This document shows positions 36,979 through 43,873 of a DNA stretch of 54,182 nt, one piece after another; position 1 is the stretch's first letter; the number at the start of each line of letters is the position of its first letter. Source of the DNA: a virus. A program made the translations under genes and the position numbers. The notes beneath the pieces are model-generated. The model made no database searches. It was not told where the DNA came from and saw nothing but the letters and a program-made list of their open reading frames with translations. The DNA is taken from positions 1 through 54,182 of IMG/VR virus record IMGVR_UViG_3300018421_000035; one strand, given 5' to 3'.

Positions 36979-39765
36979 TCAAAATCCTCCAGGTTGTAAT
37001 TTAGGTCCACTACTTACAGAATCAGTTCTCTTAGGTGATTTGGGTGGTTGTGATTGATTTGGTTTTGGTTTTCCTCTCATGCCAATTGCACTGAGGAATC
37101 TTTCCTGCCAATTAATTTCCCTCTTTGGGTTTTGTGCTGGTGGTGTTTTCGCAGGAGGTGGTTTGACCATTGGAATTGTTGGTCCTTGATGCTTCGAAGA
37201 TTCTAATTGAGTAGATCTTGCTATTTCCTGAGGAGTTGCAGTTTTCTTTTGCATCGCCTTCAATTGTTCTGGAGACATTCTTCTTACTTTCTCCAGCATT
37301 GCCTTTTCAGATGCACTCGCTTTATCCGTAGGACCAACCCACTGGGTATATCCAGATTGCTTTAACAGTTGTAGTGCTAATTGATCTTGAATTTGAGTAC
37401 TAAACTTCTGACTCTTATCTATTCCCATCGAGTTGACAAGATTTTTAAGAGTGCTTCCAATGAATTGGTATCTACCAACAGCATGTAATTTTCCCTGTTC
37501 CTTCCACTGCTCATTGCTAAGAGTTCCATCATCTGCTTGCAGTGCCATAATATCAGCGATAGTCATATCAGTCAATGACTTACCTCCATGCTGCTTCATG
37601 TTACGAATATCACCAGCAAATCCCTCAGTTCCTCTGCCACCTGCAGTGCCAATCTGGTTGACAGCATTATAACCACCAACAGAATCAGATTCATACTTAC
37701 CAATAATATCAAGTGCTTTTTTAGCATCACCTGTATAACCTCCTTCTGGAGCAGGACCAACATTTCCCCCTACAGTATTCCCGCTAGTTCCACTTGGAGT
37801 GTATCCAGTCGTATTTGGTGCTGCATTTGCAGTTCCACCAATTAATCCATTTAAAATATCATTACCAAGTTTTTTAAGTTTGTCAAACAAATTATCTTGG
37901 GACTTATTAAGTTGAAAACTACTCAAACCAGTACTCTTCAATACTCCTGAGAATAATTGATCAATCTCCTTCATTGCCTCTTTAGGCATCAATCCAGACA
38001 AAGGTTGCAGAATACTATTAGCAAAGTTAACTAACGTTAATGCTGAAATTTTTTGTGGAAGTAAAATACCAGATTGAAGTGGTTTATTGAGTTTTGAAAT
38101 TCTATCATCTTTACTCAAAAAATTGCTTACTGGAGTAAGTTTTTTATGCTTACCATCAGTAAAATGTCCACCCTTTGCTGCTTTTCTTGGTGGCACTTTG
38201 CCACTCATTTGATCATTAATATCAACAGGTTTTGAACCTGGGACAGGAACTGCTTCGCCCCTCGCTCCAGGTTTTGTCACATCCCCCATTGGATTTTTAT
38301 CACCATCTACATAACGTTTTCCAGTTTCATCCCTGCTGTCAACGTGTCCCTGCCATCTAAAATAATCTCCAAAACTTTGGGGACCTGCCCTCTCTCCAGT
38401 TCTTACAGTTGGTTCTGCTGAAAACTGACTGCTTGGATTTAAAGTTTCCCCAAGTTGATCAAATGCATTCCAATTCTCAGGTGTCCTATTATTTGGATCT
38501 GGATCTGGAATAATACCAAGTGGATCCCACCATTGATTATTTTCACCCTTTAATGGTTTGGTAAAAAATGGTTCTAAAACATCAATAAGTTGAGGAAGTA
38601 AGAATGCACCGAGAGCACCGACTAAACCACCAATTCCTGCTTTTTTCAATGGACCCAATAATGGACCCAAAAGATCTAATAAGAAATTGCTTTTTGCCTC
38701 TGCAGATGAATCCTTTGTAGGATCTAGTGAATCTTCCGCTTCTAATTCTCTTTCTCTCTTCCTTGCTGCTAATCTTTGCGTTAAGGTTTTATCAATCTTC
38801 TTTTTAAACTCAAATCTTTTCTTTTCAAGTTTATAAAGATTAAATAATGCGATTCTTGTGTCAACGACATTATCATGAATTTCTTTGATAGTCGAACTTA
38901 ATCCCATGCCGTCCGTAGACAGCATCTTCCTATCAAGTTTCTTCTTTCCTCTTGTTTTCCTTCTCTTGGTTTTCCCAGGTTGAGGAAGAGGTTCAGGTTC
39001 GTTCCTTACTTGCTCAAGTAGTTCATCTAACTTAGTGCCAAGTTGATCTGGTACTTCAGATTCCCATTCCTCCTCAAGTTCATCTTGCCCTGGAGGTAGT
39101 TGCCTATCTCTAGAAATAATAGTATCTTCTCTTCCTGGTGGAAGTTGCCTATCTTTAGGAATAATTGGATCAGGACCAATTGGATCACTATACTGGGTTT
39201 TACCCTTATTCCTTTTCCTCTGCTTAGGACCAATTGGTTCAGAATACTGATCTGGATCTGTATTCTCTCTGGTCTTTCGTCTTGACTCTAACTGCTCTTG
39301 CTGTTTTCTCTTAAACTCTTCAAAATCTCGCTTCTGTTGTGCAATCAACTCATCGATTGCATCCATAATTTTATCAGAAGTTTCTTCTAACTTCTTGTCG
39401 AGTTTCTCCTCAACATCATCAACTAATTTATCCTGTGGTTTATATACTCTAGTGTTTCCAGTATTGAGGTTTAGTTTGCCACCCTTTGCTTCTTCAAGTC
39501 CATAGAATTCTTTCAAAATCATCCTAATATTAATGATGCCAGCAGTTTCCCTGCCTGTCATCAAATCACTTTCAATATTGTCATAGTAATTTGGAAGATC
39601 TGAAGGTGCTAACCAAGTTTCTCTACCTGCAATAAGTCGCTGTGCTTTATCAATCCCATCTTGAGTACGTGGGAAAAGACCATACGCAATAAGAATCCCA
39701 GCAGCAATTTCTCTATGTGCTGGTTTTGTGAATTTCTTTATCGCTTTCTTTGGAATATTTGCCAT
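36979..39765 (-). CDS. Large tail protein with lysozyme-like domain, 928 aa
   Basis: Residues about 110-290 are charged and repetitive: KRKQQEQLESRRKTRE, and two DPIGP-type and RQLPPGxE(D) repeats. A hydrophobic Gly-rich segment lies at about 358-400 (GPLLGPLKKAGIGGLVGALG). Residues about 675-825 look like a lysozyme/transglycosylase domain: KYESDSVGGYNAVNQ, then AVGRYQFIGSTL. The Glu and the G-R-Y-Q-F element recall the lambda-endolysin superfamily. This would supply murein cleavage that the gp5-like hub lacks. The C-terminus is Pro/Lys-rich. The gene sits between the 847-aa gene and gp27, in the T4 28/29 position, so a hub or tape-measure role is plausible. Confidence 0.6.
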   Translation of the reverse strand: MANIPKKAIKKFTKPAHREIAAGILIAYGLFPRTQDGIDKAQRLIAGRETWLAPSDLPNYYDNIESDLMTGRETAGIINIRMILKEFYGLEEAKGGKLNLNTGNTRVYKPQDKLVDDVEEKLDKKLEETSDKIMDAIDELIAQQKRDFEEFKRKQQEQLESRRKTRENTDPDQYSEPIGPKQRKRNKGKTQYSDPIGPDPIIPKDRQLPPGREDTIISRDRQLPPGQDELEEEWESEVPDQLGTKLDELLEQVRNEPEPLPQPGKTKRRKTRGKKKLDRKMLSTDGMGLSSTIKEIHDNVVDTRIALFNLYKLEKKRFEFKKKIDKTLTQRLAARKRERELEAEDSLDPTKDSSAEAKSNFLLDLLGPLLGPLKKAGIGGLVGALGAFLLPQLIDVLEPFFTKPLKGENNQWWDPLGIIPDPDPNNRTPENWNAFDQLGETLNPSSQFSAEPTVRTGERAGPQSFGDYFRWQGHVDSRDETGKRYVDGDKNPMGDVTKPGARGEAVPVPGSKPVDINDQMSGKVPPRKAAKGGHFTDGKHKKLTPVSNFLSKDDRISKLNKPLQSGILLPQKISALTLVNFANSILQPLSGLMPKEAMKEIDQLFSGVLKSTGLSSFQLNKSQDNLFDKLKKLGNDILNGLIGGTANAAPNTTGYTPSGTSGNTVGGNVGPAPEGGYTGDAKKALDIIGKYESDSVGGYNAVNQIGTAGGRGTEGFAGDIRNMKQHGGKSLTDMTIADIMALQADDGTLSNEQWKEQGKLHAVGRYQFIGSTLKNLVNSMGIDKSQKFSTQIQDQLALQLLKQSGYTQWVGPTDKASASEKAMLEKVRRMSPEQLKAMQKKTATPQEIARSTQLESSKHQGPTIPMVKPPPAKTPPAQNPKREINWQERFLSAIGMRGKPKPNQSQPPKSPKRTDSVSSGPKLQPGGF

Positions 39766-39768
39766 TTA

Positions 39769-42312
39769 TCAACCTCCCACAATAGAGGGATTGCCCCATG
39801 CAGGAGTATTTGATGCAGATGCTTGGTTATTCCTCAGCATAGGTATTGGCATTGGGATATACTTAACCACTTCTTGTACCATGGATGGAAGATTGAACGG
39901 TTTTGCCTCTGGTTGAATATTGTCCTCCAAAGGATCAGGTTCTACTGCGGTATCTTTATTTATTGATGGTTTAGGGGCATTAATACTTACTGATCCTGAC
40001 TTTGCACCTCTAACATCACCATGACCAGTTTTTACAAGAACATTACCCTTTTCGTCAGTAACAGTAACGTAGGCACCATATCCACCACCTTGACCATAAT
40101 TCACTTTACCTCCCTCTAAAGTGGGAACAATAATTTCTGCACCCTCAGCACTCTTACCAAATCTAGTTTCTCCTGTAGAAGGAATATAATAGTCAATACT
40201 ATCAAAATCAGAATATCTAGAGTGCCCATGTGCAGATTGTGCCTTTGCAAGTAATGCTAACTTTTCTTCCATACTAGCATCTGAGTTCCATACTTGCCCA
40301 GACACTGCAGCATTCGAAAACTCAATCTTTCTGCCTCTTGCTGCATATGATGCTGCAAGTTTATCCATCATCTTCACTCTGTCTTCCATAGACAATGATT
40401 TTGAGAATTTAGTATCAATATGATATGCACTACTACCACCAATATATTGACTTGCTCCTGTTTTCAATCCAGTTGCATAAGTTCCGCCAACAGCAGCAGC
40501 GTTCATTGTTCCAAGTCCCATGGTGTCTAAAGTAGCAGCAGCGGCAGGAGCACCAAAAACTGAACCAACAACATCAGCAGCTACTCTAATTGGATTCATA
40601 TCTTTAAGTTTTTTAAGTCCTTCCTTTAATGGATTTAAAAAGGACATCATACCTTCCTCTATCCATTTAAAAATTTTATCCACAAGATTTGGAATCTTAG
40701 GTAACCTGCCAATCCCAGGAAATGGTGTTACTGGTTCCGATGGTAATTGCTGCAAATCCCCAAGTTCTTTAATGAGAGTCAAACTAACTCCCATTTGCCT
40801 TGCAATCACAAGTGCAGCACTAGTGACTGCACCCACTCCAGAATTCATTACCCCAAGTGCTGCGGGACCACCCAAGAACCATGCTAACTTACTTACAGGA
40901 ATGATTAGTTCATTCTCTCCACCATCTCCAACAATAACAAGTTGTGGTTTATCATCACTAACTAACCCTTCAGATGCAGCAGGAATTTCAGGTTCTGGTG
41001 TGGGTTCTGGTTTTAGTTCTGGTTTTGGTGCTGGTGTGGGTTCTGGTTTTGGTGCTGGTGTGTCAGTTTTTGGTTCTGCTGGTTTTGGTGCAGTTTCTGG
41101 TCCAATTGCTGCAAGAAATCGTCTTAATTTTTTTAATATCATTTCACTTTGAGTTTCATCACCCATCTCTATTGCTTTTTGAATTGCATGACCAGGACTC
41201 TTCTGCCAATCTTCTTCTTTCTTTATTTCTGCCTTAAGACGTTCACGTACTTGCTTTTGCTTTTCAGGAGGTACAGAATCAAATTTCTTTTTAAATGCTG
41301 CATCTTGCTCTTCATCTGTACCAAAAATTCTATCGCCAATCCACTCAAGACCCACCATTAAAACTTGCTCAAGAATATAACCAATAACAAATCCCTTTAT
41401 ATTACTAATAACTGTTTTGGGATTAATTTTAGGAAGTTTAAATCCTCCCAATTTGGGAGCAGGTACACCACCAGTGCCTGTAGTAACAGTAGGTCCACCA
41501 CCTGGACCCAATCCAACTGGTCTAGGAGCACCCCCTTGAGTTACCTTTGGTGCGGTAAAAGGATTTCTAATTTTAGGCAGTCCAAGTCCACCTGCAGGAC
41601 TTTGAAGTCCCCTAGGAATGATTGGTTTAGATCGTGTGACTGTGGGAGATTTTCTAAAGATATCAAGAGGATTATTAAGACCTTTTGGTATTCTACCCCC
41701 ACCACCTCCAGTAATTTTAGGTCCTTTATCAAAAGGATTAATATTTGGAAGCTTTGGAAATTGACCAGTTACAGTTGGTCTGTTTGGTTTAAATCTATCG
41801 TACCACTTTGGTGATCTAGATTGAGTAACCTTTGGTTTGTTTACACGTGGTTTATTTTTATTCTTATTTCGATTTTGATTTCTATTTCTTTTATTTGGAT
41901 TCTTCGGTTTATTCCTATTCTTGGGTTTATTCCTATTCTTGGGTGGTTTTAGTTTTGGTTTAAACTTAGGAAATCCAGGTAAGTTAAAATTAAATCCATC
42001 CTTCTTCGTGGGATCTAATATCGTACCTTTTGTTGCAGTTCTAACTTTTGATTTGATGATATCATCATCAATAGACAATTGTCTTAATCTAGTTTGTTCA
42101 TACTTAAAGATCTTTTCCTTAAGTTTTAAATTTAAGACAGCAACATTTCTCAAGCGCAAAGTTTCATGCGCCAAAGTTGAAGAACCAACAGTATCTCGTT
42201 TTACCTCTCTGGGTATTCTTTCTTCTTCCCCAGTTTCAGGCGAATACCCTCTAGCGTCATAAATCTCTCTTATGGCGCTAGTATAATTGGTAAGTCCTAA
42301 TCGGTTCTTCAT
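39769..42312 (-). CDS. Candidate tape-measure/hub protein with M23-like domain, 847 aa
   Basis: The N-terminal 130 residues are helical. Then comes a strongly basic run with KNRNKP repeats (about residues 117-157) and a Gly/Pro/Lys-rich stretch. A hydrophobic helix follows (FVIGYILEQVLMVGLEWIG, about 305-325), then a Pro-Ala-Lys-Glu linker (about 400-440). Residues about 690-770 contain DSIDYYIP, VPTLEGGKV, GGYGAYVTV and TGHGDV, which parallel strands and the last His of LytM/M23 peptidases. The first metal His appears to be lost. The start overlaps the stop of the −1 frame (ATGA). Its position directly after the chaperone frames suggests the tape measure (T4 gp29 role). This is an inference. 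Confidence 0.55.
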   Translation of the reverse strand: MKNRLGLTNYTSAIREIYDARGYSPETGEEERIPREVKRDTVGSSTLAHETLRLRNVAVLNLKLKEKIFKYEQTRLRQLSIDDDIIKSKVRTATKGTILDPTKKDGFNFNLPGFPKFKPKLKPPKNRNKPKNRNKPKNPNKRNRNQNRNKNKNKPRVNKPKVTQSRSPKWYDRFKPNRPTVTGQFPKLPNINPFDKGPKITGGGGGRIPKGLNNPLDIFRKSPTVTRSKPIIPRGLQSPAGGLGLPKIRNPFTAPKVTQGGAPRPVGLGPGGGPTVTTGTGGVPAPKLGGFKLPKINPKTVISNIKGFVIGYILEQVLMVGLEWIGDRIFGTDEEQDAAFKKKFDSVPPEKQKQVRERLKAEIKKEEDWQKSPGHAIQKAIEMGDETQSEMILKKLRRFLAAIGPETAPKPAEPKTDTPAPKPEPTPAPKPELKPEPTPEPEIPAASEGLVSDDKPQLVIVGDGGENELIIPVSKLAWFLGGPAALGVMNSGVGAVTSAALVIARQMGVSLTLIKELGDLQQLPSEPVTPFPGIGRLPKIPNLVDKIFKWIEEGMMSFLNPLKEGLKKLKDMNPIRVAADVVGSVFGAPAAAATLDTMGLGTMNAAAVGGTYATGLKTGASQYIGGSSAYHIDTKFSKSLSMEDRVKMMDKLAASYAARGRKIEFSNAAVSGQVWNSDASMEEKLALLAKAQSAHGHSRYSDFDSIDYYIPSTGETRFGKSAEGAEIIVPTLEGGKVNYGQGGGYGAYVTVTDEKGNVLVKTGHGDVRGAKSGSVSINAPKPSINKDTAVEPDPLEDNIQPEAKPFNLPSMVQEVVKYIPMPIPMLRNNQASASNTPAWGNPSIVGG

Positions 42313-42518
42313 GCGTTTCTACGTTGCTGCTCTATGCGTTGTTTTTCCTCTTCCAAGTATTGCTTCAATAATGCAACATAGATGTCATATTCCCAAGGAA
42401 TTAAAGATTCAATTTCAGTTAAACTATAGTTATGATGTTGCATTAATGCAAAAGTAGTTCTATAGTAATTCTCTAGGGAATTGTGGAAGAGGGCTATGCG
42501 AAAAAATTGGACAATCCT
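42309..42518 (-). CDS. T-type tail chaperone frame, probably reached by −1 frameshift (gp51 position)
   Basis: This frame is open for 69 codons from just after a stop at 42519-42521 to TGA at 42309. It encodes FFRIALFHNSLENYYRTTFA and later ESLIPWEYDIYVALLKQYL. The WEY-x-IYV-x-LL helix and Glu/Lys/Gln-rich tail are typical of the C-terminal half of lambda GT-like tape-measure chaperones. There is no good start: the only ATG (42443) falls mid-domain. The upstream frame ends at 42494, within the overlap and close to a T TTT TTC slippery site. I therefore read it as the extension of gp26 made by −1 frameshifting. It lies in the order of T4 gene 51. Confidence 0.6.
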   Translation of the reverse strand, partial: RIVQFFRIALFHNSLENYYRTTFALMQHHNYSLTEIESLIPWEYDIYVALLKQYLEEEKQRIEQQRRNA

Positions 42519-42991
42519 TCAATTACATAATCAAACTCAACACCTGTCTTTGGATTGCTTGCCTTAATTTTATGTCGAAGAGATGGCATCGTCTCAAAAA
42601 ACTTTTGAATGTTGGCAAATTGCTTAGAACTCAATTGCTCAAGGAAATGAACAAATTCATCAATTGTTGTGGTATTGGAATCCCAAACATCTTCATCATT
42701 ATAAAGGCGGGAGATTGATTTTGCCATAAACACAAAAGTGTCGTCAATATCTTCTTGTGGATCAGAAAAACTATCAAGGTTTGGATACTTCATCTCAATC
42801 CAAAGATCATCCGAAACTTTAATCTTATTAGTGTGACCGTATGCAAATTCTACATTTACATCTTCGACATCAATAGACACTTTAACCTCAGTTACTCCAT
42901 CATCTGGGCAAGTCAGAAGAAGTTCAATAACCTCACCTACAGATTTGCCCCTAATGTTTAGGAACATGTATTCAATATCAAAAGTTGCCAA
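42494..42991 (-). CDS. gp26: gp26 C-terminal part (frame after apparent indel), 165 aa
   Basis: From the TTG at 42991 the protein reads MATFDIEYMFLNIRGKSVGEVI, the core of the T4 gp26 baseplate-assembly family (PF12322 type). An IEYxFLxxRxKSxGE block is followed by a tail-chaperone-like all-helical end. In-frame codons extend upstream to 43060 and encode ALRDIISACVLTKGFDVDS, which clearly belongs to the same domain. The TTG is therefore not the true start: the N-terminus is in the fragment 43042-43194, in another frame. gp26 acts in assembly of the tube/hub, and in T4 the gene lies beside gene 51. The end of the gene holds a slippery site. Confidence 0.72.
   Translation of the reverse strand: MATFDIEYMFLNIRGKSVGEVIELLLTCPDDGVTEVKVSIDVEDVNVEFAYGHTNKIKVSDDLWIEMKYPNLDSFSDPQEDIDDTFVFMAKSISRLYNDEDVWDSNTTTIDEFVHFLEQLSSKQFANIQKFFETMPSLRHKIKASNPKTGVEFDYVIEGLSNFFA
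42500..42506 (-). promoter_or_regulatory. Slippery heptamer T TTT TTC for −1 frameshift
   Basis: On the minus strand the zero frame of gp26 reads AAT TTT TTC GCA TAG. The heptamer T TTT TTC fits X XXY YYZ, so both tRNAs can slip back one base and re-pair with TTT codons. The −1 frame then stays open to 42309. The zero-frame stop (42494-42496) is four bases beyond the heptamer. Confidence 0.6.
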
Positions 42992-43041
42992 TGAATCAAC
43001 ATCGAATCCTTTTGTTAAGACACAAGCAGAAATAATGTCTC

Positions 43042-43194
43042 TCAGAGCATTAGCAATTTGTTATCATCTTCAGATTCTAACGCCATCAAGAGAACTTTTT
43101 CCTCTTTGACCATGAATGGTCTATATTTGATCTTCTTCTTTGTAGAAGGGACTACCAATTCATATGTTGGTGAAGTCAAGGTGGGTAAAGACAT
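43042..43194 (-). pseudogene. gp26: gp26 N-terminal fragment in shifted frame, 50 aa
   Basis: Starts ATG at 43194, eight bases after GGAG. It encodes MSLPTLTSPTYELVVPSTKK and ends DDNKLLML with TGA at 43042. This is the expected gp26 N-terminus (a leading strand block, then KKIKYRPFMVKEEKVLLMALES). Continuity with the next part requires a −1 change inside 43042-43060: LLM would then be followed by ALRDIIS. No slippery heptamer is present there. A missing base in the assembly or a true inactivating deletion are both possible, so the whole gp26 gene (42494-43194) is reported as frame-broken. Confidence 0.7.
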
Positions 43195-43222: not shown

Positions 43223-43873
43223 TTAGGCGTTTTTCAACCGTTTAGTGTATCTAGAATATTCATAATAGAATGATGCTTGTAATCTTAATGGTTGATTAGG
43301 ACCATTAGATACGGTTAAATCATTTATTAAGTATGGGAATACATTATATAATTGGATGGTCGATTTAGAAGGAACCTTATTACTTCTATTAGAGTATTCT
43401 GGTTCTGTCTTTTCAATCGTCATGTCACAAACGTAATCTTTGTAATAACGAGTTAACATCCAATCTCTGGCAGTAATGTCTGGTATTCCAGTTTGAAAGG
43501 GGAACATATATTCTGCCCACTTATGTAGCATGTTCATAGGAAGGTGTTCATGATCCATCAAAAATGTGATGGTAAAATCCCTAAAAGTTTTAGTGTGTGC
43601 ATACTTTTGATTCATTCCAGGCATGTGCCCTTCAAAATCTCCAGTGCTGATACTAAATCCTGGGATATTAACTTCATCCGCAAGATAACTCAGTTTAGCA
43701 CCATTAGACGTGAGATCATTTCTCTCATACGTCTCTGGATTAATAACACCTTCCACCCCAAGATACACTGAAAGTGCAGCATTTGCACTAAAGTTAAATG
43801 ATATTTGGTATCGGTTAGACGCAGAAAGTCCATAAGGACCAACTATATTCGTCATAACATCGTTAATCTTCAT
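43223..43873 (-). CDS. gp54: gp54-like tail tube initiator protein, 216 aa
   Basis: The protein has tube-protein-like strands (ANAALSVYLGVEG, FEGHMPGMNQKYAHTKTFRDFTITFLMD, TGIPDITARDWMLTRYYKDYVCDMTIEK) with the helix MNMLHKWAEYMFPF between them. This resembles the tail-tube fold family (gp19/gp48/gp54). gp48 is separately coded on the plus strand, so gp54 is the better guess; T4 gp54 is longer (320 aa). A TATAAATA late octamer is 22 bases upstream. It is the first gene of the minus-strand hub operon. gp54 would be the platform on which the tail tube starts polymerising. Confidence 0.6.
   Translation of the reverse strand: MKINDVMTNIVGPYGLSASNRYQISFNFSANAALSVYLGVEGVINPETYERNDLTSNGAKLSYLADEVNIPGFSISTGDFEGHMPGMNQKYAHTKTFRDFTITFLMDHEHLPMNMLHKWAEYMFPFQTGIPDITARDWMLTRYYKDYVCDMTIEKTEPEYSNRSNKVPSKSTIQLYNVFPYLINDLTVSNGPNQPLRLQASFYYEYSRYTKRLKNA

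Follow-up and report, generated by a model that had tools for sequence, protein, structure and literature searches.

Does the gp26 gene of this virus end at its stop codon, or does it continue by −1 frameshifting into the overlapping reading frame that cyanophage records annotate as a separate gene 51? The window, i.e., the whole stretch of DNA analysed, is a 54-kb IMG/VR virus record (54,182 nucleotides) with gp26 and the −1 frame on its minus strand. The junction comprises the following features.

42494 to 43194, minus strand: gp26, the putative short chaperone isoform (TAC-N), with its ATG at 43194, matching PF12322 and phrog_150, broken near 43060
42500 to 42506, minus strand: slippery heptamer T_TTT_TTC, comprising two Phe codons of the zero frame and separated from the stop by one sense codon
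42494 to 42496, minus strand: zero-frame stop codon TAG, read from the sequence, the predicted end of the short isoform
42309 to 42518, minus strand: full open −1 reading frame, sharing 22 nt with the end of gp26
42309 to 42500, minus strand: predicted −1 extension, a gp51-like C-terminus for the long isoform (TAC-NC), 63 codons plus TGA, assigned by phrog_634 and homology to T4 gp51

On the minus strand, the 3′ end of gp26 reads GAA GGA TTG TCC AAT TTT TTC GCA TAG. The original prediction had placed a T TTT TTC heptamer at the end of gp26, four bases before the stop. The heptamer is present and in frame at 42506–42500, but the gap to the stop is three bases, corresponding to the single sense codon GCA. 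The −1 frame, expected to stay open for about 62 further codons, extends over 63 codons as far as 42309. Past the shift, its translation begins with RIALFHNSLENYY and ends with QQRRNA (complete extension encoded after the shift point, RIALFHNSLENYYRTTFALMQHHNYSLTEIESLIPWEYDIYVALLKQYLEEEKQRIEQQRRNA), and its TGA and the start codon of the downstream gene (ATG, 42312–42310) overlap as ATGA. We propose that gp26 and the −1 frame very probably constitute one G/GT-type tail-assembly-chaperone gene, in which a −1 programmed frameshift would give rise to a long gp26–gp51 isoform.

In the window, gp26 occurs as two pieces in two frames due to a 1-bp deletion near 43060 (43055–43065, minus strand; GATAACAAATTG in the window versus GATAAGCAAATTG in contig L001). 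This is the sole difference in 8680 bases between the window and L001, which is 99.99% identical and carries an intact gp26 frame of 233 aa. The most likely origin of the deletion is a mistake in the assembly or consensus, or else a mutation private to this contig. We rejected the break as a second recoding site because the deletion is missing from the otherwise identical L001 and from the relatives.

The main part of gp26 matched PF12322 T4_baseplate (E 8e-44) and phrog_150 (E 1.5e-54). The extension matched phrog_634, 'baseplate hub assembly catalyst' (E 2.9e-27), and had only chance matches in Pfam and NCBIfam. The short form and the extension were modelled separately with AlphaFold2. For the gp26 model (pLDDT 85.5), the best-probability solved structures included those of the HK97 TAC, 2ob9 and 3fgx (0.57 and 0.69), which are weak matches (E 1.2–1.4). 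The extension, anticipated to be a helical domain, was modelled as three helices with a pLDDT of 82, in agreement with that expectation; a fold search of BFVD with the 63-aa extension gave no significant match. A sequence search of solved structures retrieved a leucine-rich-repeat protein (E 1.5e-5) and otherwise noise.

Comparison with phage T4 relates the extension to a known protein. T4 gp26 and T4 gp51 both match PF12322 and phrog_150. On a profile of 282 positions, T4 gp26 ends at position 235 and T4 gp51 at position 280, and the latter matches phrog_634 too. The frameshift fusion aligned continuously with T4-type gp51 through the shift point (hhalign E 6.5e-20), which supports the labels 'G/GT-like' and 'gene 51' that had been given to the −1 frame. 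The alignment identifies T4 gp51 as the single-frame homologue of the fusion of gp26 with the −1 frame. Thus, the window and T4 have their protein families in common, with T4 gp26 corresponding to the short form and T4 gp51 to a homologue of the short form plus the C-terminal extension. They differ in gene arrangement, as T4 carries two divergently transcribed paralogous genes without a heptamer, whereas the window has one locus with a −1 overlap. Judged from these alignments, the window phage and most of its relatives appear to make both the short and the long form from one locus. T4 gp51 is needed for assembly and is absent from the particle (PMC3004832).

Related loci comprised 80 IMG/VR loci near the window and 80 more obtained via a profile of diverse members, complemented by a few further scans and by named GenBank phages. 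Exact-peptide scans for DLP6-, KVP40-, and Cr30-type relatives yielded few loci, and an alignment-based scan took their place. As a check on the frameshift, it had been suggested to look across cyanomyoviruses for conserved TTTTTTC and a conserved startless −1 frame. In the first locus set, the T6 run was kept in 86 of 86 loci, and the second frame was the −1 frame in all 86. In the full set, the run occupied the identical codon position in 179 of 180 loci, with 145 loci having TTTTTTC, 28 having TTTTTTT, and the remainder TTTTTTA or TTTTTTG. The T6-bearing loci span cyanophages, KVP40-like and Aeromonas phages, Stenotrophomonas phage DLP6, and rhizobial phages. The stop lies one codon after the heptamer in most loci, three codons after it in one TTTTTTT clade, and immediately after it in ME01. 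In Rhizobium phage RHph_I1_18 (L089, 3490–3525), TTTTTTA is kept and the zero frame runs nine codons further before a stop; its short isoform would therefore have a longer tail.

Among the 23 window ORFs examined, gp26 alone had a slippery T6 or A6 heptamer within five codons of its end. In-frame T6/A6 heptamers amounted to 6 per 15,441 codons in the window, and TTTTTTC was rarer than expected, with 9 occurrences observed versus 21 expected. Since the gp26 site is the only one of its kind at an ORF end, TTTTTTC is below expectation, and the T6 run is almost invariably kept among the relatives, we conclude that the heptamer at the end of gp26, combined with an open −1 frame, is not a product of chance.

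Selection on the site was assessed with 96 representatives of less than 80% identity, which were chosen among the T6-bearing loci (this excluded only one of the 180) and are related, so that per-locus probabilities overstate their independence. At the junction, the Phe-Phe codons were TTT-TTC in 67 of 96 cases, versus 6 of 102 internal Phe-Phe pairs of the same genes, which were mostly TTC-TTT (53). The X base of the heptamer was T in 96 of 96, even though the codon in front of it may encode S, D, N, A, or T. Ten T4-type genomes in which gp26 is a separate gene have a similar protein end (mostly EFF) encoded by TTC TTT or other codons, and the heptamer was absent from the end of gp26 in these ten. 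The codon usage shows that the junction is under selection at the DNA level, beyond protein conservation. From the contrast between junction and internal Phe-Phe pairs, the invariant X base, and the loss in T4-type genomes, we conclude that the heptamer is kept for its own sake and lost where it is not needed.

These data also bear on the view that the arrangement is a coincidence or a by-product of protein conservation, with Phe-Phe conserved in gp26 and the −1 frame a leftover. EFF is indeed also kept in T4 gp26, which needs no frameshift; however, internal Phe-Phe pairs and T4-type gp26 favour TTC-TTT over TTT-TTC, and the −1 frame represents a conserved family (phrog_634) under selection. 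As the codon comparison and the substitution pattern of the −1 frame contradict this explanation, we give it hardly any credence.

Transcriptional slippage on the T run could likewise generate the fusion, by ordinary translation of mRNAs that are one base longer or shorter. The poly-T run as such, with seven T in 28 loci, would be compatible with this process. However, the known bacterial cases occur on longer runs of 9 A or T (PMC5009743), and the typical locus has a run of six T, no more, with C after it. Moreover, the X_XXY_YYZ phase, the Shine-Dalgarno (SD)-like element, and the RNA stems described below fit slipping of the ribosome, and we regard transcriptional slippage as extremely unlikely.

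We now return to the proposed ribosomal frameshift and to the question whether the −1 frame could instead be a small gene of its own, as in the GenBank annotation of gp51, with translation starting independently or by reinitiation. An ATG lies 5 nt after the stop in 53 loci and overlaps the stop in 13, and in some relatives an ATG 2–8 nt after the stop could permit reinitiation. No ATG is present from −3 to +47 around the stop in 84 of the 180 loci. Close pairs of these 84 loci showed 587, 501, and 1831 differences at −1 codon positions 1, 2, and 3 of that stretch, respectively. This pattern leads us to conclude that, even before the first ATG, the −1 frame evolves like coding sequence, and thus under protein-level selection also where there is no start. 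In the window, the first ATG of the −1 frame lies 53 nt past the stop and has no SD sequence, in keeping with the earlier remark that the frame lacks a good start. Candidate gp51 starts showed a median anti-SD pairing of 0.1–0.2 kcal/mol, like random positions, compared to −3.3 for gp26 starts. The starts are not conserved across loci, and loci with a nearby ATG nevertheless retain the heptamer. Moreover, T4 gp51 carries the whole fusion. Databases do call separate gp51 genes, of 56 aa in Bellamy, 44 aa in S-RSM4, and 30 aa in P-HM2, and leave the frame unannotated in ACG-2014e and Sf-CH1b. Such inconsistent calls are to be expected if there is no true start. A separately initiated gp51 is, in our judgement, very unlikely.

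The original prediction had named two findings that would speak against a frameshift: relatives with a strong independent start, and loss of the heptamer while the frame stays intact. A few distant relatives come close to these findings. The sole locus without the run, Vibrio phage 207E48.1 (L092, Ackermannviridae, around 3525), has the −1 extension frame with CTT TTT CGG instead of the heptamer and overlapping ATGs, which counts against the frameshift proposal; the extension of this lineage is possibly made by reinitiation. Caulobacter phage Cr30 (L088/L101) and Rhizobium phage P10VF (L095) keep the T6 run and have an ATG overlapping the stop (TGATG), and therefore both frameshifting and coupled reinitiation are possible in them.

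One candidate stimulator of the frameshift is seen in the window.

42515 to 42520, minus strand: Shine-Dalgarno-like GAAGGA, candidate 5′ stimulator, 8 nt upstream of the heptamer

In the relatives, an SD-like GAGG or AAGG precedes the heptamer by about 10 nt, and it is at this element that anti-SD pairing with 16S rRNA reaches its maximum. Glu-Gly or Arg-Gly is also conserved as protein at the element, so that the synonymous component alone counts: in the 96 representatives, GAG (50 cases) outnumbered GAA (20 cases) as the Glu codon 14 nt ahead of the heptamer, whereas the counts elsewhere in these genes were 607 and 1607 (Fisher p 7e-14).

Downstream of the heptamer, the RNA was more stable than dinucleotide shuffles, with a mean z of −1.85 (80 nt) versus +0.3 upstream. 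Two clades have a common 5′ arm at nt 6–16 after the heptamer and different partners, at nt 26–36 or 55–65. As the search that yielded the stems used these very sequences, the following pairing percentages are biased towards them. In the TTTTTTT clade (L113, L115, L117–L121, L123, L131, L133–L135, L140, L156, L164, L166, L168, L177, L178, and L191), which has the long-range stem, the partner at nt 55–65 was paired in 89% of cells, compared to 25–43% when slid by 1–3 nt, and 9 cells carried double, i.e., compensatory, changes versus 2.3 in shuffles. The 38-nt loop of this stem could harbour further structure or a pseudoknot. In the clade with the ATG at +5, the partner at nt 26–36 paired at 78%; covariation was weaker there, since 9–14 of 500 shuffles reached the observed values. 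No downstream stem of at least 7 bp was found in the window's own lineage (the window with L002, L008, L010, and L012), and the downstream RNA of the window formed weak folds alone (−2.6 kcal/mol for 50 nt). As the window and its nearest relatives lack the stem, it is not essential to the frameshift proposal. We assign even chances to an evolutionary scenario in which the T4 superfamily inherited the frameshift from its ancestor and a gene duplication took its place in the lineage of T4 itself. In this scenario, the efficiency of frameshifting is tuned by stimulators that evolve independently of the slippery site, namely, an SD-like element on the 5′ side and clade-specific stems, with none of the latter in the lineage of the window.

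According to the proposed mechanism, most ribosomes would stop at TAG and release an abundant short isoform (TAC-N). A minority would be held at U_UUU_UUC, where the Phe tRNAs would slip back by one base. The SD-like GAAGGA upstream would hold the ribosome and thus aid slipping, as would a downstream hairpin in many relatives outside the lineage of the window. Slipped ribosomes would read 63 more codons and produce a minor long isoform (TAC-NC) of about 295 aa, whose helical C-terminal part would be what cyanophage annotations call 'gp51'. In analogy to lambda, the short and long isoforms would act as chaperones that coat the tape measure protein, recruit tail tube subunits, and then leave.

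The frameshift principle is already known or predicted for the tail chaperones of lambda- and P2-like and, according to recent papers, T4-like phages. The lambda heptamer is G_GGA_AAG and that of P2 is T_TTT_TTG; the one described here differs from them in being T_TTT_TTC, one codon before the stop. Vladimirov, Gautam and Davidson (Virology 566:9-15, 2022) reportedly identified the tail assembly chaperone genes of T4-like phages. PMC5009743 describes G/GT frameshifting as a widely conserved feature of long-tailed phages 'except T4'. Passages citing Vladimirov et al. state that a short gene plus a fused long one is found in some T4-like phages (PMC10274946) and that TAC-N genes of T4-like phages are known to contain poly-T slippery sequences (PMC12846349). 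According to these passages, the chaperones of that study resemble the present ones in both respects, and frameshifting is no novel idea for T4-like phages, as T4-like tail chaperones and poly-T sites are on record. Phage Adele and its kin (Vandenendeviridae/Andersonviridae) likewise have a conserved −1 frame and an invariant poly-T (GTTTTT) at the TAC-N end, as described in a section of PMC12846349; they belong to other phage families, and that section describes no stimulators. Among open papers, we found none describing the site in cyanophages. Measured against these papers, both the alternative stems and the synonymous selection acting on the SD-like element may be new. If the frameshift proposal is correct, hundreds of cyanophage records would need their annotation of a core gene corrected, since gp51 is separate and of varying length in them, or missed. 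It would also connect a pair of long-known T4 'hub assembly' genes, whose function is unclear, with an established mechanism of tail chaperones and provide a clean evolutionary comparison of frameshifting and gene duplication.

The locus resembles lambda G/GT, and also P2 E/E+E', Mu, and HK97 gp13/14, in that the extension lacks a start of its own and in the gene order, with a tube-type gene before and large tail genes after. It differs from these systems in its protein families, which are unlike theirs in sequence (PF12322/phrog_150 here), and in the prominence of an SD-like 5′ element and clade-specific 3′ stems. The neighbouring genes are as follows.

43223 to 43873, minus strand: tail tube-like protein directly upstream of gp26 (PF23849 Phage_TTP_2, E 1.2e-14; phrog_45 tail tube, E 1.4e-33)
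39769 to 42312, minus strand: next gene, 847 aa, tape-measure candidate by position only, its start overlapping the stop of the −1 frame (ATGA)

The order of tube protein, chaperone, and large tail proteins is the usual arrangement. The 847-aa gene product had no Pfam and no PHROG match, and neither it nor the following 928-aa protein showed similarity to T4 gp29 or annotated tape measures by phmmer and single-sequence hhalign. Thus, position makes the earlier suggestion of a tape measure plausible for the 847-aa gene, with no counterpart in homology. The gene directly after it (36979–39765, minus strand) encodes the 928-aa tail protein, a second tape-measure candidate, which is equipped with a cell-wall-cutting domain of endolysin/lysozyme-like type (phrog_1200, E 8e-22).
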